Part shown: positions 4,602 through 22,419 of the stretch, piece by piece | How positions within the stretch are numbered: position 1 is the first letter of the stretch | Layout: every line of letters starts with the position of its first letter | From: a virus | Length of the DNA: 25,033 nucleotides | Reading direction: 5' to 3' (one strand) | Virus record (IMG/VR): IMGVR_UViG_3300030109_001482 | Coordinates: 1-25,033 of that record | Program-made: the position numbers and the translations under genes | Notes under the pieces: generated by a model | Database searches by the model: none | The model's input: only the letters and a program-made list of their open reading frames with translations | What the model was told of the DNA's origin: nothing

Positions 4602-6647
4602 TTATCTCGGTTCTAAAAATCCTTGGTTTTTCATTGTCTTTGGCGCTCTTGCAACCAAACTATCGTTTCTTTCTATTGTAAATCCTTCATTCCTTGCTTT
4701 TGCTACAGATATTATTTGATCATCATTTAAAGGCGACTTAGCTCCTCTTAAAGATGTTTTGTATATTCTCCTTTTCCAATAATGATAACAATTACCGCCT
4801 CCTTTATAAAGCCATATAGAATAAGTAGCCGCTCCACGAGGACCCCAACCTGGATTTACTGGTATATTTTCCATTTGTACTATATCTTCCTTACGATAAA
4901 CTTTTTTACTACTCATCATTAATCTACAAAAATCTCTAGAACTTTCAGGCGTTCCTAAAGCGTTATTTTTTGTATATATATACCTTACTTTATAAAATTC
5001 ATTATCTGATCTGTTGGTGCCATCTTGTGAACTTCTTGCATTTGGTCTAGCGGTTCCTGTTTTGACAGCCATTTCTATTTTTTCATTTGCTAAAGCGTTT
5101 AATTCTTTTTCAAAGTTAAAATCTTGGTGCTCTCCATCCACTATTTCATCATCTATTAGTTCCCAATCTTCAGGAATATCCTCTCCATATTGTTCTATAA
5201 AATTTTCTAAAGCTGTAAATTCTGATAACTCAGTTTTACAATTACATTTACTTAAATTAGTTATTTGTTCATGGTTTTCACAAGGCATATAATAAGTCTT
5301 TCCATCTTGTTTATGCTCATGATGTCCACTACAACCCATTTTTTTTGCCTCCGCCTCCGCTTCTTCTATACTATCAAATAAAGGTAATTCTACGCCATCA
5401 GTAATCATACTACCAACTTTTGCTAAGTCTTCTTTAACTTCTATTTCCTCATCAATAGGTGCTAATCCTAATTCTTCTCTTATCTCATCTTGCGACATTA
5501 CCGCTTTTAAGTCCTCGCTTGTAAATTCTAATGTGATAGGCTTAATTTGTACAAAACTTACAGGCATATCCATATTATTTACCCTAAATATTTTCCTTAA
5601 TACCTTGATTAAGTGATCTTGGAATGGCTTAACAACGGTATTTAGGTAATAGTTAGCAGCGGCGTTTAGTTCATCTACATTTGAACCTAAACCAGTTTCA
5701 TTTTTTATACCCATTAACATTGGACTAGTTACACGATGTCCTGTAAGTATATTCTGAACAAGTAATTCCTGCAAAGCTAGGTATTGCTTATCTGCATTAG
5801 TCATGGATATTGGAGTAATTTCAGGCGTCCTATTTCTATCATCACTAAATGTTAATACAAACTTTCCTGCATTATCGGCGCCAGTAAACTTTTCTTTTAA
5901 ACTATGTTCTATTGCCAATCTTTCTTCTTGTGTAGGAATTCCATTAGCGAAACTAATGAAGTAAGATCCACTAAATCCATTAGATATATTATTTAAATGA
6001 AATTCTGCAACGCGTTGATCCACGAGCGCCCAATTATTTGCCGCTAAGTAATCTGGTGTATGATATACCTGCATATTAGGAGAATATAAACCACTATATA
6101 ATATTTGGTTAGGACTTGTTCTATCTTTTAAATTGAATGCAGGTACAAAATGTGGTTTATTTATTCTAGTGTTGCTCCAATCTGCCGACACATAATAACC
6201 AGGCACCTTACCGTATTCATTAGGACGAGCCGCTCTAATTTTTTCCATAGGAATGTGGTAAATTTCACTAATTTCTGTTCTATCATTTGACCAAATAATA
6301 TTTAAAGCAAAACCTCCTTGTAATTTAAAATCAAACGCTAATTTTTTTATAATTTCATGTAAATTTTCCTCATGATTAGGATATGCCATGAATTTTTTTA
6401 GCTTAACAACCGCATCCAAATCTCTTTCGTCCTCATCATCTATAATTAAATCCTCTCCTGCAATCATTTCTGATGTTGCATTTATTATAGCCGCATGAGT
6501 TGAACTATTATAATAAAGATCAATAAGGAATTGTGGATATAAATTTTTCCAATCCTCTGTTCCATATTCTATATAGTCACGCCCACGAACTTCTTGTACT
6601 ATTGGCGCTGTTGTTGTTTCTAAATTAACTGATAATATATTTTCCAT
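4602..6647 (-). CDS. portal protein with Cys/His-rich insert and extra C-terminal domain
   Basis: Residues 1 to about 400 follow the layout of phage portal proteins: a helical N-terminal part (NLYPQFLIDLYYNSSTHAAI), the wing/clip region, an FTGADNAGKFVLTF strand pair, and a stem segment with VQNILTGHRVTSP, MLMGI and NVDELNAAANYYLNT. It would form the dodecameric ring through which DNA enters the capsid. About 280 extra residues follow: a Cys/His cluster (C439, H442, H443, H445, C456, H459, C468, C470), an acidic linker, and a compact domain at 553-628 with FKVRY-like, SRDFC, KVYRKEDI, NPGWGP and IWLYKGGGNCYHYW motifs. I recall the last domain in other Bacteroidota phage head proteins. I chose ATG 6647 because it follows the previous stop directly (TAA-AT-ATG). 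ATG 6668 would add 7 residues and overlap that gene. Confidence 0.83.
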   Translation of the reverse strand: MENILSVNLETTTAPIVQEVRGRDYIEYGTEDWKNLYPQFLIDLYYNSSTHAAIINATSEMIAGEDLIIDDEDERDLDAVVKLKKFMAYPNHEENLHEIIKKLAFDFKLQGGFALNIIWSNDRTEISEIYHIPMEKIRAARPNEYGKVPGYYVSADWSNTRINKPHFVPAFNLKDRTSPNQILYSGLYSPNMQVYHTPDYLAANNWALVDQRVAEFHLNNISNGFSGSYFISFANGIPTQEERLAIEHSLKEKFTGADNAGKFVLTFSDDRNRTPEITPISMTNADKQYLALQELLVQNILTGHRVTSPMLMGIKNETGLGSNVDELNAAANYYLNTVVKPFQDHLIKVLRKIFRVNNMDMPVSFVQIKPITLEFTSEDLKAVMSQDEIREELGLAPIDEEIEVKEDLAKVGSMITDGVELPLFDSIEEAEAEAKKMGCSGHHEHKQDGKTYYMPCENHEQITNLSKCNCKTELSEFTALENFIEQYGEDIPEDWELIDDEIVDGEHQDFNFEKELNALANEKIEMAVKTGTARPNARSSQDGTNRSDNEFYKVRYIYTKNNALGTPESSRDFCRLMMSSKKVYRKEDIVQMENIPVNPGWGPRGAATYSIWLYKGGGNCYHYWKRRIYKTSLRGAKSPLNDDQIISVAKARNEGFTIERNDSLVARAPKTMKNQGFLEPR

Positions 6648-6649
6648 AT

Positions 6650-6868
6650 TTAATCTTCTTGTGTCCATTCAGGACTATCTAGTATTTCCATGATTTGTTC
6701 ATAGTCATAAGTTGTTTTACCCTCTAAAAAACTAGGTGTATCTCCATTAAATTTTAGTAAAGCCAAACTTCTATCGTTATTATATCGTAAAGTTTCTTCA
6801 GAAGTTTCTAGCACTAGATTAAAATCTACATCCGCTACCTGTTCTGCTAATATTGTTACATATTTCAT
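6650..6868 (-). CDS. hypothetical protein, 72 aa
   Basis: This acidic small protein has a beta-rich first half (MKYVTILAEQVADVDFNLVLETSEETLRY) and a C-terminal helix (TTYDYEQIMEILDSPEW). No family is recognised. It lies between the LamG-domain gene (1-base gap) and the portal. In a head module a gene of this size could be a minor head protein or an assembly factor. There is no membrane segment. The ATG follows an A/T-only leader. Confidence 0.7.
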   Translation of the reverse strand: MKYVTILAEQVADVDFNLVLETSEETLRYNNDRSLALLKFNGDTPSFLEGKTTYDYEQIMEILDSPEWTQED

Positions 6869-6869
6869 A

Positions 6870-7604
6870 TTAATTGTTTGTTGGTGTTACTGTTGACCAT
6901 GTTGGCGTATTAACTAATGTACCATTTTTACCATTACCACTACTATCTAAAGCTGTTGTGCCTGATCCTGATTCTAATCTATAATATCCTACCAAATTAG
7001 ACATATTAGTTATGTCCATAGGATAAAAGCGTGTAGCTACGGCATTTGATCTATTTTGTATAAATTGCATATTTGCTAAAGTTAATGTACTTGTAAATAT
7101 AGCTACATTAGACAAATAACCTTTATAAAAGCCACCTCCTGTAAGGTTTTGACCTAAGTCAGCTTCTGACATTGTTCCACTAAAAGTACCTAAACCTGTA
7201 GTTGTTGCTTTTAACTGTCCATCTAAATATAGTTTTATTTCATCAGCTGATGCGTTCCATGTGGCGCCTATATGATGCCATTCTCCATCTCCCTCTATCG
7301 CTTCACTTGTAACAGCAGTTTTGTTAGTTCCTCCTGCTTTATAAGCGAATCTAAGTTCATTAGCTGAAGCGTGGTAAAGTATATTTATAAAATTATTAGA
7401 ATCTACTTTAGCTCTAAATAAATTACCTGTACTTGATACAGTGGATAACTTTGCCCACAATGACACACTACCTGCTGCACCACTTATAGATGATGCTACG
7501 GCGTCTATTGTTACACTTTCATCTGTACCATTAAATAGTAAGGAAAAGGTATCAAAGTCTTTCCTATTGGTTTCTAATGTTGATCCTTGTAGTAGTCCTA
7601 GCAT
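6870..7604 (-). CDS. LamG/concanavalin A-like lectin-domain virion protein
   Basis: Residues 20-185 form a laminin-G/concanavalin A-like jelly roll: FSLLFNGTDESVTID, VSLWAKLS, an inner strand set, GEWHHIGATWNASADEIKLYLDGQL (the clearest signature, split here at about residue 107), then GYLSNVAIFTSTLT. A C-terminal tail carries the VGYYRLESGSG and TALDSSGNGKNGTL motifs seen beside such domains. The fold binds sugars or other proteins. Lying between tail-tube-like and portal genes, it is probably a decoration or adhesion protein on the capsid or tail that touches host or environmental glycans. Its ATG shares one base with the stop of the preceding gene, which suggests coupled expression. Confidence 0.75.
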   Translation of the reverse strand: MLGLLQGSTLETNRKDFDTFSLLFNGTDESVTIDAVASSISGAAGSVSLWAKLSTVSSTGNLFRAKVDSNNFINILYHASANELRFAYKAGGTNKTAVTSEAIEGDGEWHHIGATWNASADEIKLYLDGQLKATTTGLGTFSGTMSEADLGQNLTGGGFYKGYLSNVAIFTSTLTLANMQFIQNRSNAVATRFYPMDITNMSNLVGYYRLESGSGTTALDSSGNGKNGTLVNTPTWSTVTPTNN

Positions 7605-7888
7605 TACAGTATATCTTCATAATAGCACAAAGCAACTCCACTTGTTAAAGTTATAGCGGTAACATTTAAAAAGATAGTCGTACCTGCAGGGATTGTAGTC
7701 TGTAGATTTGATATTGCACTACCTGTTGCTCCTGTAACATTAGCCGCTGCTATACTTGATATAACAGATGTTACAGGGAAATGCACTGCGTAATAATTTT
7801 TTCCTGTCATAGCGGTTGTTGCTATAACATCGCACCTGTGTTTTCCTAGTTGTTCTCTTAAAAGTTCGTTATTGTTTTCTATAGGCAT
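7604..7888 (-). CDS. small virion protein of a marine-phage family, 94 aa
   Basis: The protein begins MPIENNNELLREQLGKHRCDV and then has Ala/Thr/Val-rich strands (SVISSIAAANVTGATGS, TTIPAGTTIFLNVTAITLTSG). I recall very similar short proteins in uncultured marine phage genomes next to tail and LamG genes, where they have no assigned function. The beta-rich composition fits a small structural or decoration protein. The stop shares a base with the LamG start (TAATG type), so the two are probably made together, perhaps as partners. Confidence 0.6.
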   Translation of the reverse strand: MPIENNNELLREQLGKHRCDVIATTAMTGKNYYAVHFPVTSVISSIAAANVTGATGSAISNLQTTIPAGTTIFLNVTAITLTSGVALCYYEDIL

Positions 7889-7899
7889 ATTTTAATTTT

Positions 7900-8391
7900 T
7901 TATTGTCCGTAATATATATAATTTGACTCCTCAGGTCTAGTTCTTTGAGTATATTGTACTTGTTCTGATCCTACTTTTTCTGCCACATATAATTTTCCTA
8001 ATTCTACTCTGCCTTGCACTATACCATTAGCGTCTGCAACAGGCAATGTTTGTGTTTCTGAGATAGGAGCCGTGTCTGTTGTTAATGTAGGACTACCCAC
8101 CCAACTTACTTCGTATATCTCATACTTCCAATATCCATTAGGAACTAAATTAACATTACCTGCTAATGTATTAGCTGCGCTATCTGCTGTGGTGGTGTGA
8201 TTCCAAGTAAAATATGTATATCTATCATAAACCGCTTGTGTTAAGCCATAAACATACTTCACCGCTTTACTCATTTCATTTGTTAATTTACATAAATATC
8301 TTAATTTAGCAGTAGTAACTGCCGTGTTAATTCTATACTCTTCTGTAGTAGTATAACATTGTACCGTTGAACCATAAACCGCTTGTATCAT
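7900..8391 (-). CDS. putative virion structural protein, 163 aa
   Basis: The protein is neutral and rich in Thr, Tyr and Val, with no membrane segment. Residues 1-60 hold a helix pair (TTAKLRYLCKLTNEMSKAVK) and residues 85-150 are beta-rich (GYWKYEIYEVSWVG, then GRVELGKLYVAEKVG). The composition matches the flanking virion proteins, not the early genes. I do not recognise a family. It is the first gene after the terminator at 8430-8459. Its start is preceded by TTCTATTATATATT, the same 14 bases found before the ATG at 20999. A tail or head completion role is possible from context only. Confidence 0.6.
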   Translation of the reverse strand: MIQAVYGSTVQCYTTTEEYRINTAVTTAKLRYLCKLTNEMSKAVKYVYGLTQAVYDRYTYFTWNHTTTADSAANTLAGNVNLVPNGYWKYEIYEVSWVGSPTLTTDTAPISETQTLPVADANGIVQGRVELGKLYVAEKVGSEQVQYTQRTRPEESNYIYYGQ

Positions 8392-8429
8392 AATATATAA
8401 TAGAAATGAACTTAAAATATTTGCAATAT

Positions 8430-8459
8430 AAAAGAAAAGAGTGGCAATATTACCACTCT
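8430..8459 (-). terminator. intrinsic terminator after the tail-tube-like gene
   Basis: On the minus strand AGAGTGG and CCACTCT (8453-8459 and 8438-8444) form a 7-bp stem with an 8-base loop, followed by TTTCTTTT (8437-8430). It lies in a 100-base gap after the stop of the gene at 8492-9058, in the right orientation to end that transcript. Partial read-through is needed unless a promoter lies within the next 40 bases, and I see no consensus one. Confidence 0.65.
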
Positions 8460-8491
8460 AATCAAGAAATATATGAAAACTACAAATAATT

Positions 8492-9058
8492 TTAAGATGT
8501 TACTATGGAATTATATGTAAATGCCGCATTGTCTAATGGTGTTGTAGTGTAATCTGCAACCATAGGCATAGGATCAACCTCCTGACCATCAAATGTCCAA
8601 TCGTATCCGTTCATATCTCCAAATGCAGCTCCAGTAACATTGGTTCCTGCATTTAGCAATAATCCATTAACTCTTCCTAAGCATAATATTTTATCGTGTG
8701 TAGTACCCTCTACTAATTCATTCATTTGTACAAACACTAATAACCTATTTGCCGCTAAAAGTTTAATTTGATTCTGATCTTCTTTTGTTAATCTGTGTAA
8801 CTTGATATTAAGACTTTGAGCATAAAAAATAGTACCATTTTCAACCGATCCAGTAATAGTTTCAGTAACAGATCCTGTACCACGAGGTAATTTGTATCTG
8901 TATATATCATCTCCTGAACCTAAATCAAAATCAGTTAACTCCCCTGAAGATACAGTAGTGCTTGTCAATTCGCTATGTTGTGCGAAATAAACAAACTTAA
9001 TTCCTCCTACTGATTCTCTACAAGTTATATTTCTTCCTTTTGTTAAATTACAAGGCAT
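8492..9058 (-). CDS. putative major tail tube protein
   Basis: The 188-residue beta-rich protein has the pattern I know from Bacteroidota phage tail-tube candidates: GGIKFVYFA near the start, VTETITGSVENGTIFYAQSLNI (about 63-84), LHRLTKEDQNQIKLLAANRLLVFV, GRVNGLLL, then TGAAFGDMNGYDWTFDGQE. A repeating small beta-sandwich protein encoded next to the capsid gene and closed by its own terminator fits a highly expressed tail tube subunit. The start MPCNLTKGRNITC places two cysteines in the first 13 residues. The assignment rests on pattern recall and position. A capsid decoration protein is the alternative. Confidence 0.58.
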   Translation of the reverse strand: MPCNLTKGRNITCRESVGGIKFVYFAQHSELTSTTVSSGELTDFDLGSGDDIYRYKLPRGTGSVTETITGSVENGTIFYAQSLNIKLHRLTKEDQNQIKLLAANRLLVFVQMNELVEGTTHDKILCLGRVNGLLLNAGTNVTGAAFGDMNGYDWTFDGQEVDPMPMVADYTTTPLDNAAFTYNSIVTS

Positions 9059-9077
9059 AGTATTATGTTTTTAAGTT

Positions 9078-9108
9078 AAAAGTGGGGGTATATTTCAACC
9101 CCCTACTT
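9078..9108 (-). terminator. intrinsic terminator after the major capsid gene
   Basis: On the minus strand AAGTAGGGGGTT...ACCCCCACTT folds into a stem with five G-C pairs, about 10 bp in all with a single bulge, a loop of about 8 bases, and TTTT at its end. It sits 8 bases after the capsid stop codon and 20 bases before the next gene. It is by far the most G-C-rich stretch in this AT-rich window. It probably ends or stabilises the 3' end of abundant capsid mRNA while letting part of the transcription pass. Confidence 0.62.
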
Positions 9109-9115
9109 ATATAAT

Positions 9116-10030
9116 TTATGATTGTCTTACGATGTCAGCTCCTACTCCTGTTTGAACACCTGCTGAATATCTAGCCACTAATCTCATATTGTCACTTCCA
9201 TCCAAATTAGACATATCCATTAAAGTAATTCTAGTCATATCTGAAAGTAAGTCAGTTCCAAAGAATAAGTTACTCTTTTCTGCCGCAACCACTTGATTAT
9301 CAGCCATTCCAGGACATACTGCAATTTTGTAACCCTCGAATACAGGCTCATAGTCGCCATTCATATTGTAAGCATTAACATATCCTAATGTAGATACTGC
9401 TGAAATATAGTAAGCATAAGTCTTATTATTCATGTAGATATGTAAATCCTCTTTACCTAAAATTGGAGAAATATTATCCGCCATATCTTTAGTTAAAGTT
9501 TGTAGGTTTGCTATAATGTTTGCTGCTGAATAAGCCGCAGATGCAGATGATTGAATAACTGTAGCATCAACACCTGGTAATAAAAGACCAGTTGCCGCAC
9601 CTAAAAATCCATTGAATTTCCCTGCTACTGCAGTTCCTTCCCAAATACTTTCTTCAGTTGCTTGTGCTATAATTTCACCCATGTATGATATTACATAGTC
9701 ATCAAAAGATGCAGGTGGTGGTGCTCCTGCTCCTGCTCTCATTTGCATTGCCTCCCAAGAATCTAGTAAAGTTTTTTTACATAGATCAAGATTGATTTGT
9801 AAGTTTTTTGGCTCTAAAACCTTTTCTGTAAGTGCTAATGTACCTGCATCCGAAAAGTCGCAAGTAGCATCCGCAACTACACCTGATCCTGCCATTCTTT
9901 GTATGTTAGATTTATACTTAATGTTTTCCATTGTAGTTAAGTAATCTAACGACTTCGCCTCTTTTAAAGCTGCTGAGATATAAAACCCTGCCGCTTTACC
10001 TGCGTAGTTCGATGTTGTAGTAAACGCCAT
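9116..10030 (-). CDS. major capsid protein, HK97-like fold
   Basis: The 304-residue protein directly follows the protease and scaffold genes in transcription order, the standard place for an HK97-fold shell protein. Its features fit: an N-terminal helical arm, a stretch containing SWEAMQMRAGAGAPPPASFDDYV before a spine-helix-like segment (YMGEIIAQATEESIWEGT), and a C-terminal P-domain/A-loop region with ILGKEDLHIYMNNKTYAYYIS, VCPGMADNQVVAAEKSNLFFG and RLVARYSAGVQTG. It has no long N-terminal delta-domain, in keeping with a separate scaffold gene upstream. Hundreds of copies build the head. A strong hairpin follows its stop codon. Confidence 0.85.
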   Translation of the reverse strand: MAFTTTSNYAGKAAGFYISAALKEAKSLDYLTTMENIKYKSNIQRMAGSGVVADATCDFSDAGTLALTEKVLEPKNLQINLDLCKKTLLDSWEAMQMRAGAGAPPPASFDDYVISYMGEIIAQATEESIWEGTAVAGKFNGFLGAATGLLLPGVDATVIQSSASAAYSAANIIANLQTLTKDMADNISPILGKEDLHIYMNNKTYAYYISAVSTLGYVNAYNMNGDYEPVFEGYKIAVCPGMADNQVVAAEKSNLFFGTDLLSDMTRITLMDMSNLDGSDNMRLVARYSAGVQTGVGADIVRQS

Positions 10031-10049
10031 AATTGTTATTTTTTAATTA

Positions 10050-10748
10050 TTATTTATTTAAGTTATATAAAAATCTTTCTTGTTTAGAAAGTTTGTTGTA
10101 TTCTTTCCTACTTAATACAGGTTTTTCTGCACTAAATTTATTTGCAGTAATAGGCGCATCAGCAGGTGCCTTTGCTAATTCTGTTTTAAGTTTCTCATTT
10201 TCGGATTTAATTGCCGCTACTTCTTCTGCTGTAAATTCAACAACCTCAGTAGTTTTAGTAGTTACTGTTTTAGGACTATCTGAATCAGTAGTTTCTTCTG
10301 ACATTTCTTCTACATCACCAGTTTCTCCTATTTCTCTTTTAAGATCAGAAACAGCATCTTCCAAGTTTTTAATTCTTTTTTCCATACCAGCCCAATCGCC
10401 AACATCCGCTTCATCATCTTCGTAAGTATCCTCATCTTCTTTAGCTAATTCTTCCGATAAATCCTCTTCAGTGTCTTTTTCTTCAGTTTCACTTTCAATA
10501 AGTTCATTAACTATACCTTCCTGCTCAACTCTAAAACTTAAACCAGTATCCACCTTATAAGTTCCTATAGGTAATGGAATTGTAGTTCCATCTTCTGTTA
10601 AAACGCTTATATCAACGCCTTGTTCCAACTCTTCTGCTGTTGAAACTAAAATTGTGCCATCGTCCGTTTTGGCTTGCCATCCTAACTTGATTTCATCCTC
10701 TTTTTTATCAAGTCCTAATGCAACTAATATTTGTTCTTTTAAATCCAT
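10050..10748 (-). CDS. capsid scaffolding protein (putative)
   Basis: The 232-residue protein is strongly acidic in the middle (about 80-120, mostly Glu/Asp). A coiled-coil-like segment (MEKRIKNLEDAVSDLKREIG, and later VAAIKSENEKLKTELAKA) and a basic C-terminus (SRKEYNKLSKQERFLYNLNK) follow. A helical, charged protein encoded between the prohead protease and the capsid protein is the usual layout of a scaffold. The basic C-terminus is where scaffolds contact the shell. A first domain (1-75) is beta-rich and not recognised. The family has no sequence signature, so the call rests on composition and position. Confidence 0.68.
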   Translation of the reverse strand: MDLKEQILVALGLDKKEDEIKLGWQAKTDDGTILVSTAEELEQGVDISVLTEDGTTIPLPIGTYKVDTGLSFRVEQEGIVNELIESETEEKDTEEDLSEELAKEDEDTYEDDEADVGDWAGMEKRIKNLEDAVSDLKREIGETGDVEEMSEETTDSDSPKTVTTKTTEVVEFTAEEVAAIKSENEKLKTELAKAPADAPITANKFSAEKPVLSRKEYNKLSKQERFLYNLNK

Positions 10749-10778: not shown

Positions 10779-11516
10779 TTAATTATTTATTTTGTTTTTA
10801 TTCTCTTGCAATATTTCATTTAGTGCCTTAAGTATTTCTTCATCTGTTGGTTGTCTTTCAGACATTTTTTGCATTTTATCTACAAAGTAACCCTCTATAC
10901 TTAATCCTTTTAACTCTCCATCTTTTATTTTATTCCATAATTCATCATTATTAATTTTCATCTTAACAAACCATGTTCCATTAGGTAAATCATAACCATA
11001 TAATTTAGATTTATCCTGATCTCCCTCCTTAATCCAACTTTCTACTGTTAAAACTCCTGATACTCTATCCTTATGTTGGTATGTCGCTTTATGATGGTTA
11101 TTATGTTTTAAATATAATTCAGATGCTTGCCTTACAGTTTCAGGACTAAAATATACATAGTATTCTGAATCAGTATTTGGATCATACCTAAATATTTGCT
11201 TATTAGGAATAAGAGCAGGACTAACTAGCATCCTTTTTTCTTCATCTATTTTAGCAAATGTTAAGTTGTTTTTTTCTTTACCAAAGTATACAAAATCTTG
11301 CTCAATAGCAGGATTAGTAACTAAACTTATCGCATCTATTGCTAATTCTTCTGAATCATCCGCTATTACTAATTCTACAATTTTAGTAATCTTATCCATA
11401 ACTGTTTCCTCATAATTATATGGATTAGCGGATTCACATTCTGACTTAGTCGCATATTTGCACTCTCCTGTGGTTCCCCACTTATATTGTCCATCTTTAC
11501 ATTGTTTACACGGCAT
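10779..11516 (-). CDS. XkdF-type prohead protease (Peptidase S78_2 family)
   Basis: Residues 40-225 match the XkdF-like putative serine protease family: a helix with AIDAISLVTNPAIEQDF, the KRMLVSPALIPNKQI strand, YQHKD with the likely catalytic His148, VLTVESWI (156-162), GTWFVKMKIN, and the GLSIEGYF block holding the likely catalytic Ser206. It would cut scaffold and capsid arms during head maturation. The genes for both substrates follow directly. The first 30 residues are an extra Cys module (C3, C6, C19, C27; MPCKQCKDGQYKWG...) that could bind zinc. Removing it by starting at Met40 is possible but seems unlikely, because the module itself looks conserved in type. The start is preceded by TATTATATATT. 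Confidence 0.78.
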   Translation of the reverse strand: MPCKQCKDGQYKWGTTGECKYATKSECESANPYNYEETVMDKITKIVELVIADDSEELAIDAISLVTNPAIEQDFVYFGKEKNNLTFAKIDEEKRMLVSPALIPNKQIFRYDPNTDSEYYVYFSPETVRQASELYLKHNNHHKATYQHKDRVSGVLTVESWIKEGDQDKSKLYGYDLPNGTWFVKMKINNDELWNKIKDGELKGLSIEGYFVDKMQKMSERQPTDEEILKALNEILQENKNKINN

Positions 11517-11552: not shown

Positions 11553-13154
11553 TTAAATTGTAGCTCTTCTTCTGATATTTGCTAATTGGTTTTGACTAGA
11601 TGTCATTTCATCAGTTAATACAAATGCTTGTAATGGTGGTTGCTCTGCTTGTGTACCTGTTAAATTAAAGTTTCCACTGAACATTTCTGTTGTAGGTTCT
11701 GCATTAGCCATAGATCCTCCTGTTGTTCCTCCTCCTCCTGGTATTTCTACCTCCATAATTCTTCTAACATTAGACAAACCTTGTAAAATGATAGCGGCGG
11801 CTGCTACAGGTCCGACCATACCACCTTGTTCTAAAGCTTTATTTGCTCCTGCATATGTACTCATTATTGCTCCTGCTACGGCTAATCCTTTATTGTCATT
11901 AGCTAATCCTGCCATAGCTGTAGCTAAAGTTCCTAATGCCGCTGCTTGATCTGCTGTTGTTTCTTCCGCTAGTTCTACAGTTTGTTTAGCTGATACCTTA
12001 TTTTTTGCATCTTCTTGTGCCCTATATTTATCTTTTATTTGCTGTATTTTACCCTCCTGCGCATCTATTAACTCTGTATGCCTTGTGTAGAATTTTTTAT
12101 CCTCTTCACTAAGGTTATTATAGTATTCCTGCGCTGCATGTATTTCTGCAAAATATTTGTCAATTACATCATTTATTTCTCTTTGTTGTGCTGATACTAA
12201 CGATTGATAATAGTCATCCAAAAGTTCCTCCTGTTTTTCATTCATAGCAATTAGCCTATCCATCTCTTCTTTATCTCTTTGTAGTCTTTCTGCCGCTAAT
12301 TCTCTTTCTAATGTATTTACCTCCGTTATTACTCTCCTCCTTAATCTTGCTTGCGCTGTAATAACTTCTGTTACTCTTGCCTTTGCTTCTGCTAACGCTC
12401 TTTCATCCTCTGCCATATTTTCACTTTGAGCCATTTCTAATTCTAAAAAGTCCCTCCTTTGTTTTGCTAGTCTTAATTCTTCTGCTGTTGCTACTTTTTC
12501 TAACTCTAGTGATCTTTTTAATTGTTTTAACCTTTCTTCTGCACTTTTAGTTTCATCTTCTGCCGCTAATCTTGCTTTTTCTATTGCTTGCCTTGTTTTA
12601 GCTTTTTGCTCAATAAAGGCATTTTCATCTTTCCTTAATTGTTCTCTTTTATCTACTAAATCAGTCATTACTTCTACCTCTGTTCTAGCTTCTTCTGCTA
12701 TACCTTTAAATGCATCTTTTAATATTTGAGCACCTTCTGAGAATTTACCCTCAAAAAATATCATGGATAATCCTTCTCCTAATGATGAAAATCTATCAAT
12801 TAAAACATTTGCTATTGCTCCTATTCCCTCAAATGCCTTTTTAAGTTTTACAGCACCTCGTTGTGTATTAGTTAAGAATGATACCAATGATCCAAATGCT
12901 ACTAATAAAGCACCAATACCTGTACTTATTAATCCTGCTTTTATAGTTCCAAACATCATTTTAGCCATAGGTATTACTCTACCCATAGCTGCTCTAACAC
13001 CATTTAAAGACACACCCATAAATGTAAAATTGGATATAGCACCTTTTGCCTCCTTATTTACTTCATCCATCTCATTCTTAAAGCCCTTAGCGTCTCTAGT
13101 TGCTCCTTTGATATTACTATTTAAATTAAAGTTGAAAGTTTGTGTATTTGACAT
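11553..13154 (-). CDS. tail tape measure protein
   Basis: The 533-residue protein has the classic layout: a short N-terminal part, a hydrophobic Gly/Ala-rich segment (about 60-95, GLISTGIGALLVAFGSLVSF), a long charged coiled coil (about 155-400) rich in Glu, Arg, Lys and Ala, and an Ala/Gly-rich hydrophobic segment (about 405-455) before a disordered tail with an EIPGGGGTTGG stretch. It sets tail length and is expelled with the DNA. It follows the fibre-like gene and precedes the protease, whereas in most siphoviruses it precedes the distal tail genes. The length is short for the family. At about 0.15 nm per residue, the rule of thumb for other phages, the tail would be roughly 80 nm. Confidence 0.82.
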   Translation of the reverse strand: MSNTQTFNFNLNSNIKGATRDAKGFKNEMDEVNKEAKGAISNFTFMGVSLNGVRAAMGRVIPMAKMMFGTIKAGLISTGIGALLVAFGSLVSFLTNTQRGAVKLKKAFEGIGAIANVLIDRFSSLGEGLSMIFFEGKFSEGAQILKDAFKGIAEEARTEVEVMTDLVDKREQLRKDENAFIEQKAKTRQAIEKARLAAEDETKSAEERLKQLKRSLELEKVATAEELRLAKQRRDFLELEMAQSENMAEDERALAEAKARVTEVITAQARLRRRVITEVNTLERELAAERLQRDKEEMDRLIAMNEKQEELLDDYYQSLVSAQQREINDVIDKYFAEIHAAQEYYNNLSEEDKKFYTRHTELIDAQEGKIQQIKDKYRAQEDAKNKVSAKQTVELAEETTADQAAALGTLATAMAGLANDNKGLAVAGAIMSTYAGANKALEQGGMVGPVAAAAIILQGLSNVRRIMEVEIPGGGGTTGGSMANAEPTTEMFSGNFNLTGTQAEQPPLQAFVLTDEMTSSQNQLANIRRRATI

Positions 13155-16787: not shown

Positions 16788-18244
16788 GCTTTGTGAGTTC
16801 TTTTCATTTTAGACTTTTCTATATTAAACATATAAGAAATTTTCTTGTCATTTTCAATTGTTTTCCTAGTGTATGATGAATCACTAATAGTAACTGGTTC
16901 TATATATCTATTGGTAACAGTTTCAGATGTATCTGTTTGAAATTCTTTAACTATATAAACTTCTAAACTATTATTTAATTCTTCAAACCATATTGCCTCT
17001 TCTTCATTAATAAAATCTGTACTTATTCTTATTCTTTCTGTATTATTTGTAAGTAAATTCTTTTTACCTCCTTGATAACCATTAGTCGTAAATACATTAC
17101 TATTCCAATTACCATGTAATTGATTATATGATACTCTATTTGTAGAAATAGTCCTTACTGATTTCATTCTAAATGTATAATAATCCCATGTACCCCATTG
17201 ATTTAACCAACATAATCTTATAGCTTCATATCCTAAACAAGCATTAGATACAATATTAAATGTATATAATTGACTAATAAGAGCGCCACTATCATCTTTA
17301 GCTTGTAATGTATAATAACTTACATTTGCTTTGTGTGTGTTCCAATCTGCATATGTACTAGGTTTTTTTATATAACCTCCATCAAAATTAGCAGGAAATG
17401 CTCCAAAATACATTAGATTTCTATTACTTCTACTACTGTTTGTAGTTTGACCTCCATTTGTCCAATTTTGATTTACATTTATATCTGATCCTAATTGTGC
17501 ACCTGCACTATTATATAATTTTATAGTTATACGATTTACTTTATTTACAGTAGCTGATCCTGATCCTATTTCTGGAAAGAAATTTAAAAAAGGCATTGTA
17601 CCATAGTCTGTAAGTCTTGTATATTGTGTTGTAGGTGCATTAGTTAAAAATTTACTATCTGAATCATTCATATATAGATTGGCAGTATCCATATTGAATC
17701 CATAATTAAAGTTATTTAAAGTAAGTACATTATCAGGTTGTAACATACCATTAAATATGGTAAATTCTACACTATTTTCTTGTGTAGTAGTGTCTTCTGT
17801 TACGGCACCAGTAGCTGTATCAGAATATTCCAAACTAAATGTAACTTGGAAATGCTTTACAGAATTATTATTTGTACTTAATATATCTATTAAATGAACA
17901 GGGTGTGGTGTATTTTCGCTATAATCTACGCCTTTATATGTACTTGCTTCGCCATATGTAGTTCCATTATAATCAGGGCTTACATAATTTTCTAATATTG
18001 TACTAAAATCAAATATAGCAACTCCTTGTCCGTTAGGATTTACTTTAGTAATAGCAACTATTTGACTTGTACTACTAGGATTTATAGCAAATTCTAACAC
18101 TCTTAGTCTTGCAATGAATTTTGTATTGAATTTATTAGCTACTATAGTGTTATTAGATACAGTAAAAACTAAATTTTGCCCTACTGGTATTGCTACTCTA
18201 TCTTTTCCAAATTGATATGGTTGTTGTTCTATAATTGTACTCAT
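16784..18244 (-). CDS. putative distal tail / receptor-binding protein, 486 aa
   Basis: This is a Thr/Asn/Ser/Tyr-rich beta protein without membrane segments or low-complexity repeats. Recognisable stretches such as TKFIARLRVLEFAIN, VAIFDFSTILENYVS, EYSDTATGAVTED and NACLGYEAIRLCWLNQWGTWDYYTF recall minor tail proteins of Bacteroidota phages that lie between the neck and hub genes. The NQWGTWDYYTF motif is a strong fingerprint of that group as I recall it. No function has been shown. It overlaps both neighbours by four bases (ATGA at each end), so it is probably made in fixed ratio with the hub protein and forms part of the tail tip. Confidence 0.6.
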   Translation of the reverse strand: MSTIIEQQPYQFGKDRVAIPVGQNLVFTVSNNTIVANKFNTKFIARLRVLEFAINPSSTSQIVAITKVNPNGQGVAIFDFSTILENYVSPDYNGTTYGEASTYKGVDYSENTPHPVHLIDILSTNNNSVKHFQVTFSLEYSDTATGAVTEDTTTQENSVEFTIFNGMLQPDNVLTLNNFNYGFNMDTANLYMNDSDSKFLTNAPTTQYTRLTDYGTMPFLNFFPEIGSGSATVNKVNRITIKLYNSAGAQLGSDINVNQNWTNGGQTTNSSRSNRNLMYFGAFPANFDGGYIKKPSTYADWNTHKANVSYYTLQAKDDSGALISQLYTFNIVSNACLGYEAIRLCWLNQWGTWDYYTFRMKSVRTISTNRVSYNQLHGNWNSNVFTTNGYQGGKKNLLTNNTERIRISTDFINEEEAIWFEELNNSLEVYIVKEFQTDTSETVTNRYIEPVTISDSSYTRKTIENDKKISYMFNIEKSKMKRTHKA

Positions 18245-18825
18245 TTTTTACCTATGTTTTTTGTTATTTCCATGAAATCTTTATTGAATGCATTTAGTAA
18301 ATCTGTAGGGAATTTTTTTAAGCCTATTCTCATTGGCGTAGTATAATAACTTATACCTTGTATTCCTCTTATCCATAAAGATCGAACAATAGCTATTTTT
18401 AATCCTTTTCTTGAAATAAATTTTCCTTGTGCATCTCTAGGCGCTATACCTTTTTTTACTATCCATTTATCTAGTGCTGTATATATACTTCCACTACCTT
18501 TACCGCTACCAAATTGATACGGACTTTTAGTTGGCGAACCTCCTTTTATATTTTTATAATATCGTACTCCACTATGACTACCTTTGTATTTACCTGATTT
18601 AAAAGTGCCACCTATTCCTGATACTCCTTTATCTACAAAATCTCCATAATCTGCTGAAAAAAATCTCAAACTATATCCTTTTGGCGTACTTATTAATTTA
18701 TATTTTATTGAATTTAATAAAGTACCAGTAACCACTTTACCTGCAGTGGATAAATTATTCTTAGCTTGTTTTGTTACCTTTCTACCAAAGCTATTTAAAA
18801 AATTTTTTATCGCCTTATCTTTCAT
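18241..18825 (-). CDS. HK97 gp10-like neck / tail completion protein
   Basis: The basic 194-residue protein has the gp10-like pattern: an N-terminal helix, TGTLLNSIKYKLI, then the signature strand RFFSADYGDFVDKGVSGIGG (about 55-74). After it come a Lys/Gly/Ser-rich loop (SPYQFGSGKGSGSIYTALDKWIVKKG), a QGKFISRKGLKIAIVRSLW helix and a C-terminal amphipathic helix. The FVDKGVSG and WIVKKG-IAPRDAQGKFISRK motifs are typical of neck proteins in Bacteroidota phages. It would seal the head-tail joint. Its place far from the portal and connector genes is unusual but fits its grouping with the tail terminator-like gene. Confidence 0.7.
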   Translation of the reverse strand: MKDKAIKNFLNSFGRKVTKQAKNNLSTAGKVVTGTLLNSIKYKLISTPKGYSLRFFSADYGDFVDKGVSGIGGTFKSGKYKGSHSGVRYYKNIKGGSPTKSPYQFGSGKGSGSIYTALDKWIVKKGIAPRDAQGKFISRKGLKIAIVRSLWIRGIQGISYYTTPMRIGLKKFPTDLLNAFNKDFMEITKNIGKK

Positions 18826-19629: not shown

Positions 19630-19694
19630 ATCTTTATTATTATTTTAAAAAATCCTATTTCTATTTTATATTTGCCTATTTTAAATTTTATCAT
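19626..19694 (-). CDS. micro-ORF, 22 aa, coupled at both ends
   Basis: The ORF starts in the TGA of the upstream gene (ATGA at 19691-19694) and its own TGA overlaps the ATG of the downstream gene (ATGA at 19626-19629), so it fills the gap between them exactly. The peptide is short, basic and hydrophobic (begins MIKFKIGKYKIEIGFF, then III and a final KI) with alternating Lys and Ile, and would form an amphipathic strand or membrane-active peptide. It may be a real micro-protein or only a translational bridge that carries ribosomes to the next gene. Perfect fit at both ends is the main evidence. Confidence 0.45.
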   Translation of the reverse strand: MIKFKIGKYKIEIGFFKIIIKI

Positions 19695-20233
19695 TTACCT
19701 GCATAATCAGTAGTGGATGGAATGTTACAAGTTTGGTAATCATTCATTAATAACACAGGCAAAGTAAATACCCAACCTACCGCAGCGTTGTCGAATCTTT
19801 CTGTAAAAGGTTCTATTGTAATATCTCCATCTTGTATAAAATAAGCGGCATCCTCATTTATTCCTATATTAGAATGGTAAAGAGCTTCTCCTGTTTTAAA
19901 TGTACTTATTATATCTTGACATATTTGTAAGCAATCAGACAATACAGTTTGTTCCTGTATTTGATCCTGATCTTGAGAAGTCGCTGTAGCTGAATTATCT
20001 TGTTGTTGTACCATATATACCAAATCCATAACAAATATTTGAAAATTCATAACCGTAGTCTTTTCGCCAAATACAGCATTAACTGGATTTATAAACATCA
20101 AAGGAAATAACGTGTTTTTTTCCAAATCAATTTCCCAAATATCTCCACTATTTACATTTTGTATTTGTTTATGATTAACGCCTATTTGCTTTAAAGTGTT
20201 AATTGTTTGATTATAGTCTTTAAATTTTGTCAT
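19691..20233 (-). CDS. putative tail terminator / tail-to-head joining protein
   Basis: The 180-residue protein has a pattern I associate with tail-completion proteins of Bacteroidota phages: a helix, GDIWEIDLEKNTLFPLMFI (about 30-48), a strand NFQIFVMDLVYM, a Gln/Asp-rich helix ending VLSDCLQICQDIISTF, DGDITIEPFTERFDNAAVGWV (135-155) and a hydrophobic strand with LPVLLMNDYQTCN. The EPFTERF-x-N-x-x-x-GW motif is the clearest. It would cap the finished tail tube for joining to the neck. It follows the tail chaperone with an ATGA overlap and precedes the gp10-like gene by three ORFs. Assignment is from remembered patterns plus context. Confidence 0.6.
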   Translation of the reverse strand: MTKFKDYNQTINTLKQIGVNHKQIQNVNSGDIWEIDLEKNTLFPLMFINPVNAVFGEKTTVMNFQIFVMDLVYMVQQQDNSATATSQDQDQIQEQTVLSDCLQICQDIISTFKTGEALYHSNIGINEDAAYFIQDGDITIEPFTERFDNAAVGWVFTLPVLLMNDYQTCNIPSTTDYAGK

Positions 20234-20475
20234 TTATTTATTGCTTTAGTTTCGTTTAAATCAGTTTCATAACTTAACCATGTTAAACATTCATATAGTG
20301 GTAAATTTGTAATTCTTTCTAAGTTCACTATTTCGCCATTTGTTAATTTATACATTATTGCAAACCATCCCCACTTCCTTGTAAATTGTTTTTCTGTACT
20401 TGCTCCACTACTTTTTTCTTGAGATTTAGTAAAAATGAGGGCAAACGTATCAACAGTTCTTTCCCTAAAATCCAA
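20230..20475 (-). CDS. -1 frame extension of the tail assembly chaperone (predicted frameshift product)
   Basis: This open frame has no ATG near its 5' end; the only start is TTG at 20475, right at a T9 run. It lies in the -1 frame of the chaperone gene and overlaps its last 121 bases. A -1 slip there would join 175 chaperone residues to these 81, giving a protein of about 256. Past the overlap it encodes RKWGWFAIMYKLTNGEI, then RITNLPLYECLTWLSYETDL, which looks like a conserved domain of its own. The layout equals the G/GT tail chaperones of lambda-type phages. The alternative is reinitiation at ATG 20355-20357, which shares a base with the chaperone stop (TAATG) and would give a 40-residue peptide lacking the KWGW part. 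Confidence 0.6.
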   Translation of the reverse strand: MDFRERTVDTFALIFTKSQEKSSGASTEKQFTRKWGWFAIMYKLTNGEIVNLERITNLPLYECLTWLSYETDLNETKAINK

Positions 20476-20999
20476 AAAAAAACCAAAGAATTATGAACAT
20501 CCCTAGCTTTCATACTCTTAAATATTTCCGCTCTTACTTCTGCTTTTGTTCCATCATAAGCTTCAATAGAATAACTATTATTTTTCTTTTCTGTTATTGG
20601 TCTATACAATACACTCATAACTTTATCCAAATTATCTTGTAATCCTGCATCTATGTAATTTTCAATGTCCGCATATTCGCCTAATGTAATAAGTTCCAAA
20701 TTAGGATGGAATCCATATTCTTTATTATCTATTTCTATAATTCTATTAAATATCGTATTTTCTTCTGCTTGTAGTTTTGATAAATATTTCATTAACTCCG
20801 CAGTGTCATTTAACGTTAATTGCTTTAATATCTTTTCAGGAATATCTGATAATAGTTTTATTGTTTCTAGCGCCTCCTTACTTTTAGTTTTAGTTTTAGA
20901 TGTTATTAATTTTGCCCATTTCTCCAATGTCACATCATTCCAACTCCTAATTACATTGTATTTTCTTTTTTTATTCTCTTTTGTAATCGTGATTTGCAT
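20355..20999 (-). CDS. putative tail assembly chaperone (G-like)
   Basis: The 214-residue, mostly helical protein has a WNDVTLEKWAKLITSKTK segment near the start, a middle with NKEYGFHPNLELITLGEYAD, then LQDNLDKVMSVLYRPITEK and DVHNSLVFFWILGKELL. A helical protein with a LTLGEYADIE/VMSVLYRPI core, upstream of tail genes and overlapped by a -1 frame ORF, fits the tail chaperones that coat the tape measure during tail assembly. It ends NNLQGSGDGLQ. The heptamer T TTT TTT at 20481-20475 lies in its reading frame. The start is preceded by TTCTATTATATATT, shared with the gene at 8391. It is the first gene after the terminase and the small-RNA gap. Confidence 0.62.
   Translation of the reverse strand: MQITITKENKKRKYNVIRSWNDVTLEKWAKLITSKTKTKSKEALETIKLLSDIPEKILKQLTLNDTAELMKYLSKLQAEENTIFNRIIEIDNKEYGFHPNLELITLGEYADIENYIDAGLQDNLDKVMSVLYRPITEKKNNSYSIEAYDGTKAEVRAEIFKSMKARDVHNSLVFFWILGKELLIRLPSFLLNLKKKVVEQVQKNNLQGSGDGLQ
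20474..20482 (-). promoter_or_regulatory. predicted -1 ribosomal frameshift site (T9 run)
   Basis: On the minus strand the sequence reads TTG GTT TTT TTT TGG in the chaperone frame. T TTT TTT (20481-20475) is a perfect X-XXY-YYZ heptamer with both tRNAs able to re-pair after a -1 step, and the new frame stays open for 81 codons. A second A6 run (20412-20417) lies in the overlap, but its phase gives G-AAA-AAA, a poorer slip site. I see no strong stem just downstream. Confidence 0.55.
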
Positions 21000-21051: not shown

Positions 21052-21110
21052 TAAATGTGTTTTTGTGTTGATGTGTTATAAAGAGGTCGCTCCTAGTGGG
21101 CGGCTTTTTT
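21052..21110 (+). ncRNA. candidate short RNA opposing the late operon
   Basis: A perfect promoter match ends at 21046 and a terminator ends at 21110, so the predicted RNA is about 58 bases. It has a T/G-rich single-stranded 5' part (ATGTGTTTTTGTGTTGATG) and a 3' hairpin. It lies in the 110-base gap between the terminase large subunit and the tail chaperone, one of only two gaps over 90 bases in the late block. Its last two bases overlap the terminase stop codon on the other strand. Promoter, body and terminator together are the evidence. Its target and role are not visible. Confidence 0.5.
21082..21110 (+). terminator. intrinsic terminator, plus strand
   Basis: GTCGCTC (21086-21092) and GGGCGGC (21098-21104) pair as a 7-bp stem with two G-U pairs and a 5-base loop, followed by TTTTTT (21105-21110). 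An A-rich stretch before it (AAGAG) can extend the stem into the T run. It is one of the few G-C-rich hairpins in the window. On the minus strand the hairpin has no T run, only CTCTTTATAA, so it would be weak as an end for the terminase transcript. Confidence 0.65.
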
Positions 21111-22419
21111 ATTGCACAAAATATTTACCATAATTACTATCTATCTCATAGTAACAACGCATAGCTAATGCATCGGCATAATCAGGCGATCTTCCTAAAA
21201 TTGCTTTGATTGTGTCCTTTGGTATAATCTGTAATTTAGTATCCTTATCAGCGTCCTTTGTTCTTACTTGCTCTAGTTCTTCTATAATATCATTTTTAAT
21301 TCCTATGTCTTTACAAGTGATACCTATTTGTCCTTTATTTATTAAATCAGCTAATTTATAAAAACATTGTGTTTTTAAATTTTGATAATTTTCTCCTTTT
21401 AATGCTCTTGAATTATTTACAAATCCTTGGCATCTTAAATAATCTTTTACACCTCCACCTACTCCATCTTCATCCACAATTATATTTCTTAATGGCACTT
21501 GATTCTCTTGTTGTAATCTCCTAACCTCCTCCACAACATCATTTATAGACGATTTAAGCAAAGATTTAATATTTATAATATGTAACCCTTTCCATACCAT
21601 TATAACCGTTTTATCGCTTCCAAAACGCGCTACATCGCAACTTATATATTTATCTCCTTTTATTCCTGTTTGATTGAATAAGTTTATAATCGCATCGTAT
21701 TGAATTAAACTATCGTCTGTCGCATCATATTCCCAATTACCATATAATAACCTTTGTTTACTTAACTCATCTAAGGTTTGTAATTGTGTTTTGTAATATT
21801 TGGATATATATTGATTATCGTCTACTAAACTTTGTATAAATTTTCTATGTGGTTTTTGTTTCCCCTCTTTTGATGGTCTATAATATTGTGTATATACCCA
21901 ATTCTTAGCAGGATTACAAGTCATTAACAATTTAGGAATTATATTATATTGATCTAATTTATACCTCATTCTTGAAGAAACAATATTTTTTGCCTTTTCT
22001 GTTATTTGGTTACATTCATCTATGAAAGCGCCAGTTAATTCTAATGATCCTAAGTTGTCAAAGTTTCTGTCTGATGGATATAGGAATAAATCCTTAAGCA
22101 TTATTTCAGATTTATTATAAAATGTTATAACATTGGAACTTCCGTTAAAATGGTAATGCTTTTCTGCTTTGATTCCCCACTCTTCACATACTTCAAAAAA
22201 TGTATTTAATGTAGTTTTCTTTAATGAATCTAATTTACTTCTACCCATTAAATATCTAGTTTTAGGATATTTTAGACACATTAATATTAACCAACTACAT
22301 CCTACCCATGATTTACCTCCTCCTGCTGCTCCGCCAAATAATACTTCTGTGGTTTTTTTATCAAATAAGTACTCTATTGCCTCTTGTTGAGTGAGTGTAA
22401 ATTCTGCATTAATATTCAA
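21109..22419 (-). CDS. terL: terminase large subunit (ATPase and nuclease)
   Basis: All active-site motifs are present. The ATPase has Walker A GGAAGGGKS (29-37), Walker B AFIDE (131-135) with Glu135 as catalytic carboxylate, and the coupling motif LLMTCNP (164-170). The RNase H-like nuclease has three acidic positions: D262 (SCDVARFGSDKT), D316 (IIVDEDGVGGG) and D413/D416 (SPDYADALAM). At 436 residues it is at the compact end of the family but complete. It pumps DNA into the prohead through the portal and cuts the concatemer. Its start overlaps the small subunit by 11 bases. The stop codon overlaps the terminator of the opposing small RNA. Confidence 0.93.
   Translation of the reverse strand: MNINAEFTLTQQEAIEYLFDKKTTEVLFGGAAGGGKSWVGCSWLILMCLKYPKTRYLMGRSKLDSLKKTTLNTFFEVCEEWGIKAEKHYHFNGSSNVITFYNKSEIMLKDLFLYPSDRNFDNLGSLELTGAFIDECNQITEKAKNIVSSRMRYKLDQYNIIPKLLMTCNPAKNWVYTQYYRPSKEGKQKPHRKFIQSLVDDNQYISKYYKTQLQTLDELSKQRLLYGNWEYDATDDSLIQYDAIINLFNQTGIKGDKYISCDVARFGSDKTVIMVWKGLHIINIKSLLKSSINDVVEEVRRLQQENQVPLRNIIVDEDGVGGGVKDYLRCQGFVNNSRALKGENYQNLKTQCFYKLADLINKGQIGITCKDIGIKNDIIEELEQVRTKDADKDTKLQIIPKDTIKAILGRSPDYADALAMRCYYEIDSNYGKYFVQ

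Follow-up and report, generated by a model that had tools for sequence, protein, structure and literature searches.

Tail assembly chaperones of lambda (gpG and gpGT) and HK97 (gp13 and gp13-14) are made as a short 0-frame product and a longer -1 product from overlapping reading frames. In the published passages available to us, described G/GT pairs are ribosomal frameshifts or are taken as such. The same portions of the literature describe Thermus dnaX and Shigella mxiE as genes in which a homopolymer run joins two frames by slippage of RNA polymerase; these are host genes with an unrelated function. According to a review passage, bacterial RNA polymerase slips at a high level in vivo on runs of nine A's or T's, with a 9-10 bp hybrid (PMC5009743). 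In addition, proteins of Duneviridae and other phages that belong to phrog_25418 are encoded by one ORF of 259-301 aa and annotated as hypothetical. Here, we compare with these systems a pair of overlapping frames, designated G and T, in a virus of the IMG/VR collection.

The window, i.e., the whole 25,033-nucleotide stretch that was analyzed, belongs to a 29,804-base virus record and carries G and T on the minus strand. As originally predicted, their frames overlap and T is in -1 relative to G, an arrangement like that of lambda and HK97. G (20999..20355, (-)) starts with ATG, has a 0-frame product of 214 aa and matches phrog_32199, a family of unknown function. T (20490..20230, (-)) is a -1-frame domain, open from stop to stop over 86 codons, that matches phrog_38404. 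The two frames share a run of nine T's (T9; 20482..20474, (-)) followed by GG, within which lies the in-phase heptamer T TTT TTT (20481..20475, (-)). Across the run, G codons are GTT TTT TTT TGG, and the codons of T are set one base upstream of those of G. Reading in -1 from the slip gives an 81-residue T part (20475..20230, (-); LDFRERTVDTF...RKWGWF...CLTWLSYETDL). The overlap of 121 bases given in the original prediction is recovered as the distance from slip to G stop, and the stop-to-stop overlap is 136 bases. At the end of G, its stop overlaps an in-frame ATG of T in the sequence TAATG (20357..20353, (-)).

In the proposed mechanism, most expression would end at the G stop and yield the 214-aa G protein, and a fraction would slip by -1 at T9 and yield a G-T fusion of 256 aa, consisting of 175 G residues followed by 81 residues of T with ...VFFLDFR... 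at the junction. Roles would be those of G and GT in lambda and HK97: many G copies would coat the tape measure protein, and the T part of a few G-T copies would recruit the tail tube protein.

G/T is located in a minus-strand structural module that comprises small and large terminase genes, G/T, a 180-aa conserved gene, tail-completion-like and large tail proteins and, further along, a tape measure candidate followed by protease, capsid and portal genes. The terminase large subunit (21109..22419, (-); phrog_2, E 1.6e-33) is immediately upstream of G. The gene for the 180-aa protein (19691..20233, (-)) begins with an ATG that overlaps the stop of T (ATGA), and its relatives come after G/T in the other loci viewed; no homology was found between this protein and the product of the gene that follows the fused homologs described below (hhalign probability 0.3). 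A tail-completion/neck-like protein (18241..18825, (-)) had a weak match (phrog_29822, E 3.9e-12; phrog_5, E 0.0024), and the tape measure candidate (11553..13154, (-); phrog_3336, E 8.5e-5) lies ~7 kb downstream of G/T. The order of the module is unusual in that the portal gene follows those for capsid and protease and is far removed from the terminase genes (4602-10748 in the window, (-)). The protease candidate (10779-11516, (-)) also matches phrog_1530 (E 2.5e-19), which is labelled DNA methyltransferase and is perhaps a mislabelled family.

Occurrence of the slip site was assessed in relatives of this locus, of which one IMG/VR scan contained at least 576. An initial search with T identified 48 IMG/VR loci, whose similarity begins at the T run; the -1 relation and an in-phase T run are present in every one of them and in the window. 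It was followed by four more T-domain scans (profile and single query, best 80 loci each) and by phage-record searches, the two later of which returned nothing or only Nonlabens phages. In the first larger set, the -1 relation was kept in 254/254 distinct contexts, and the run in its 253 loci had the form xTT TTT TTT Tnn, or was T10 or a shifted variant. The full set contained 382 records, in none of which was a T match found without an upstream G. We dropped 55 records whose last 500 bases of T duplicated those of others and eight without a T match (L384 and seven loci of named phages, L297-L303, in which the gene is fused or broken); L001, L295 and L296 were also left out. T was in -1 relative to G in 319/319 distinct contexts (318 related loci and the window), and 318 of these had an in-phase slip run, consisting of nine T's in 277 and of ten in 41. 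The remaining context (L212) also has T9 and was set aside from run counts, as a stop occurs earlier in its G frame. No T7 or T8 run was present among the 318 kept contexts, every run having at least nine T's. Thus, conservation of a T-rich heptamer and of the frame relation, by which the original prediction could be judged, was seen in every relative examined.

Since these contexts are not independent (they include shared contigs and near-identical phages), we also give cluster numbers: the 318 kept rows represent 257 distinct T proteins, which group into 124 clusters at an identity of 90% and into 25 at 55%. The 0-frame tail past the slip varied from 6 to 88 residues in these rows and T length was steady (82-99), as expected if it is T on which selection acts, the 0-frame tail often being exempt. 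For representatives, 207 of 253 loci were kept (the others had no ATG found, N or a stop) and 79 were chosen from them; three short ones were left out of the G set by hand. All 76 G sequences match phrog_32199, and 31 of the 79 T sequences match phrog_38404, the window's T among them (E 4.4e-4). In Nonlabens phages P12024S and P12024L, the two parts are recorded as separate hypothetical proteins, in agreement with the suggestion of a family-wide, unannotated frameshift: a programmed -1 change would join them. A scan of a genome collection detected one locus (L134, PAPR01000004.1). The contig that carries it belongs to a MAG labelled Pseudooceanicola; this is probably a binning error or a free phage contig. 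Judging from named phages only, one of which was recorded from Microcystis, hosts of this phage group are probably marine and freshwater Bacteroidota.

The T run itself appears to be under selection. T9 alone is not rare, with one run on the window's coding strand vs 0.7 expected. Expectation for the three free third-base positions of the run was based on codon use elsewhere in the same G genes, where TTC accounts for 22% of Phe codons and T is the third base of only 39% of Val/Leu/Ile codons. By this measure, T at all three positions was expected at ~0.23 per locus and found in all (log10 P = -12.6; 15 cluster representatives, clusters taken as independent). T is conserved as a protein. In the window's cluster, 0-frame position 2 was the slowest before the slip (mismatches 15432/6869/24327 by codon position); past the slip, it was 0-frame position 1, which is -1-frame position 2 (1567/4778/4559). 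The slowest codon position is thus displaced by a single base at the slip, the shift predicted for a change of frame. Two other clusters (L172 and L234) had no clear switch of substitution phase in the 48 bases tested past the slip, and perhaps both frames are used there. Outside the slip site, runs of nine or more T's were depleted across 313 loci (25 vs 101 in a single dinucleotide shuffle), and runs of nine or more A's were likewise depleted (55 vs 284 in a single dinucleotide shuffle of the same loci).

Homologs that contain both parts as one uninterrupted ORF were identified in Flavobacterium, Cellulophaga, Polaribacter, Bacteroides and Microcystis phages. When the G model was used as the query of a fold search, 38 viral matches at E <=0.001 were returned, all unnamed or uncharacterized; Nonlabens phage P12024S and Flavobacterium phage 6H were among them, and the latter led to phages with the fused ORF. 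These are FPSV-F7 (293 aa), laban6-1 (301 aa), Cellulophaga phage Ingeline_1 (301 aa), Bacteroides phage BT-TP2 (270 aa), Polaribacter phage Leef_1 (259 aa) and Microcystis phage Mea-Yong924-1 (274 aa), all in phrog_25418. The fused proteins aligned with G (hhalign probability 97.1, E 5.6e-11) and with T (probability 91.7, E 7.8e-7; both E values are pairwise and not database-scaled), and the two matches occur in the same order and meet at the slip-site FF. In contrast to G/T, these proteins are encoded by one ORF that does not contain the T9 site. Three of the six fused ORFs have exactly T6 at the junction (codons TTT TTT), and these, being already in frame, need no slippage. A scan with the laban6-1 protein recovered only laban6-1. 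In 6H itself (L297, 10050-10927, (-)), the fused gene is interrupted and its sequence differs around the junction, reflecting either a real change or a sequencing error; that of FPSV-F7 is intact. The existence of in-frame fused homologs argues strongly for a covalent G-T protein as the working form.

Several lines of evidence were considered for the function of this protein. An AlphaFold2 model of G had a mean pLDDT of 84.6. When 139 PDB chains were re-aligned to it with VIA-align, the HK97 tail assembly chaperone (2ob9_B) was first by Z, its middling score of 4.6 being one that can also arise between unrelated folds and possibly reflecting only a common arrangement; 70 residues of this 104-residue chain aligned with the N-terminal part of G at an rmsd of 3.3, and the second chain had a Z of 2.9 and an rmsd of 11. 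We regard the match as supporting evidence, not proof, because the HK97 chaperone is the very protein predicted by the frame arrangement. Foldseek searches of the PDB with the G model gave no match below E 0.48, and no chaperone was among the 33 matches listed. The model of T alone (pLDDT 55.9) was too poor for structure search. Unlike the frame arrangement, sequence shows no detectable similarity to lambda or HK97 chaperones: neither G nor T could be credibly assigned to a Pfam family, and Phage_TAC (at 0.01) and phrog_344 were matched by none of the 76 G sequences, HK97 gp13 used as a control matching both Phage_TAC_1 (1.2e-60) and phrog_344. Nothing meaningful came from PDB sequence searches in which the T alignment and two G alignments, small and large, served as queries. 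Weak matches to phrog_166 'tail protein' came from 9/76 G sequences (best E 0.0014); they favor a tail role but form a weak bridge to known tail proteins. G also differs from its HK97 counterpart in size (214 vs 128 aa), and G/T differs from both chaperone pairs in having a T9/T10 slip run.

Alternative explanations of these features were weighed. Homopolymers are error-prone and related phages carry both parts as one ORF, so a sequencing or assembly error that split a single true ORF had to be considered; however, the same kind of run and the same frame relation occur in 319/319 contexts, including the isolate genomes P12024S and P12024L, and T9 and T10 loci share one frame relation, which random indels would not produce. 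This explanation has a negligible probability and is refuted for practical purposes. It is also very improbable that T is a separate protein, made by reinitiation at TAATG or from an internal codon. The window does have TAATG, an ATG is present near the 0-frame stop in 111/317 loci and gene 41 of Nonlabens phage P12024L is annotated as its own CDS. The ATG in the window (20355..20353), however, is a point on which the original prediction of a T without ATG needs amendment: there is one, and it lies only downstream of KWGWF. It could start a 41-aa T fragment, but by its position reinitiation there cannot supply the conserved part of T, as the conserved -1-frame block would be left untranslated. 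The proportion of loci with an ATG near the stop also implies that a reinitiation site is not general in the family. Most relatives have no codon at which translation of the complete T domain could start: 294/318 had no ATG, GTG or TTG between the slip and the W-x-W motif, 10 had only GTG or TTG, one did not have the motif, and an ATG in this interval, the feature that would speak against the original prediction, was found in only 13/318. No ATG occurred within the first 60 codons past the slip in 201/318. Furthermore, a separate T disregards the known fused homologs and leaves the invariant T9 unexplained. Taken together, the constant frame relation (319/319), the T9/T10 run, missing starts and fused homologs imply that the G-T fusion product is almost certainly real. 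A genuine G/G-T pair might have a role other than tail chaperoning, e.g., as a neck or head-tail joining protein in two lengths. This is unlikely, although the pair adjoins terminase and tail-completion-like genes, not tape measure, and sequence libraries contained no chaperone match. The lambda G/T gene position, between major tail protein and tape measure, differs from the terminase-adjacent, tape-measure-distant arrangement seen here, and HK97 likewise differs in this respect. Against such a role, a short product with a -1-extended form is the known chaperone arrangement, the best re-aligned fold match is the HK97 chaperone, and in Ingeline_1 two genes separate the fused gene from the annotated tape measure gene downstream of it. 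The original description of the locus as bearing the hallmark of tail assembly chaperones thus stands in moderate form: the two-product logic, tail-module setting, top HK97 fold match and Ingeline_1 neighborhood favor it and the middling score of that match weakens it, and we assign G/T as a tail assembly chaperone with moderate confidence.

A further question is which machine would slip, and here the ribosomal and RNA polymerase routes are about equal. The in-phase heptamer noted in the original prediction is present, but nine T's in any phase contain an in-phase T7; its phase is therefore not independent evidence, cannot decide between ribosome and polymerase, and was dropped as proof of ribosomal slippage. 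In the polymerase route, which falls within the G/G-T reading and does not compete with it, nine template A's would lead to one extra U in some mRNAs, and ordinary translation of these would give G-T. We consider this route only slightly short of an even chance. Tandem tRNA slippage needs only seven T's, and the run had at least nine in 318/318 kept rows, a minimum that fits slippage by polymerase. In two loci (L121 and L130), G replaces T just 3' of the heptamer and an extra 5' T is present, so that the run is still nine; these loci are related, however, and perhaps reflect a single event. The two outer T's may instead be held by protein sequence, with V/L/I/F before and mostly W/Y after in the 0 frame and Leu in the -1 frame. 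Also in favor of the polymerase route, an RNA stimulator was not found in 79 representatives: there was no downstream RNA structure beyond chance (mean z -0.36), and a Shine-Dalgarno-like motif upstream occurred in 7/79, also not beyond chance. The review passage on slippage at nine-base A/T runs (PMC5009743) is consistent with the polymerase route, but the precedent of tail chaperones, in the passages available, is ribosomal or taken so, and the depletion of long T runs elsewhere is matched by that of A runs in the one shuffle made. As in dnaX and mxiE, a homopolymer run would join two frames, but the slippage proposed for G/T, its occurrence in vivo and its rate included, is predicted.

The reading that best accounts for these data is that a short G and a slipped G-T act as lambda/HK97-like tail chaperones, for which we estimate a probability of roughly three in four (0.76). 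G/T would then be a new sequence family that works like lambda G/GT and is recoded at T9 with no detectable RNA stimulator. In the open-access literature, we found no description of a frameshifted chaperone from this group of phages. Frameshifted chaperones are a known kind; as far as found in that literature, the family, the invariant nine/ten-T site and the fused relatives are new.

These findings provide a candidate function for three families labelled unknown (phrog_32199, phrog_38404 and phrog_25418) and correct gene calls in a common phage group. They also offer a natural comparison between frameshifted and fused versions of one protein, and the nine-T minimum allows a clean test of ribosomal vs polymerase slippage in phage assembly. 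A more tentative proposal, to which we give somewhat less than even odds, is that RNA polymerase sets the tail-chaperone ratio through a mixed mRNA pool and that relatives dropped the two-product scheme by gene fusion. If the polymerase route is true, transcriptional slippage would be the means by which an entire phage group controls tail assembly.
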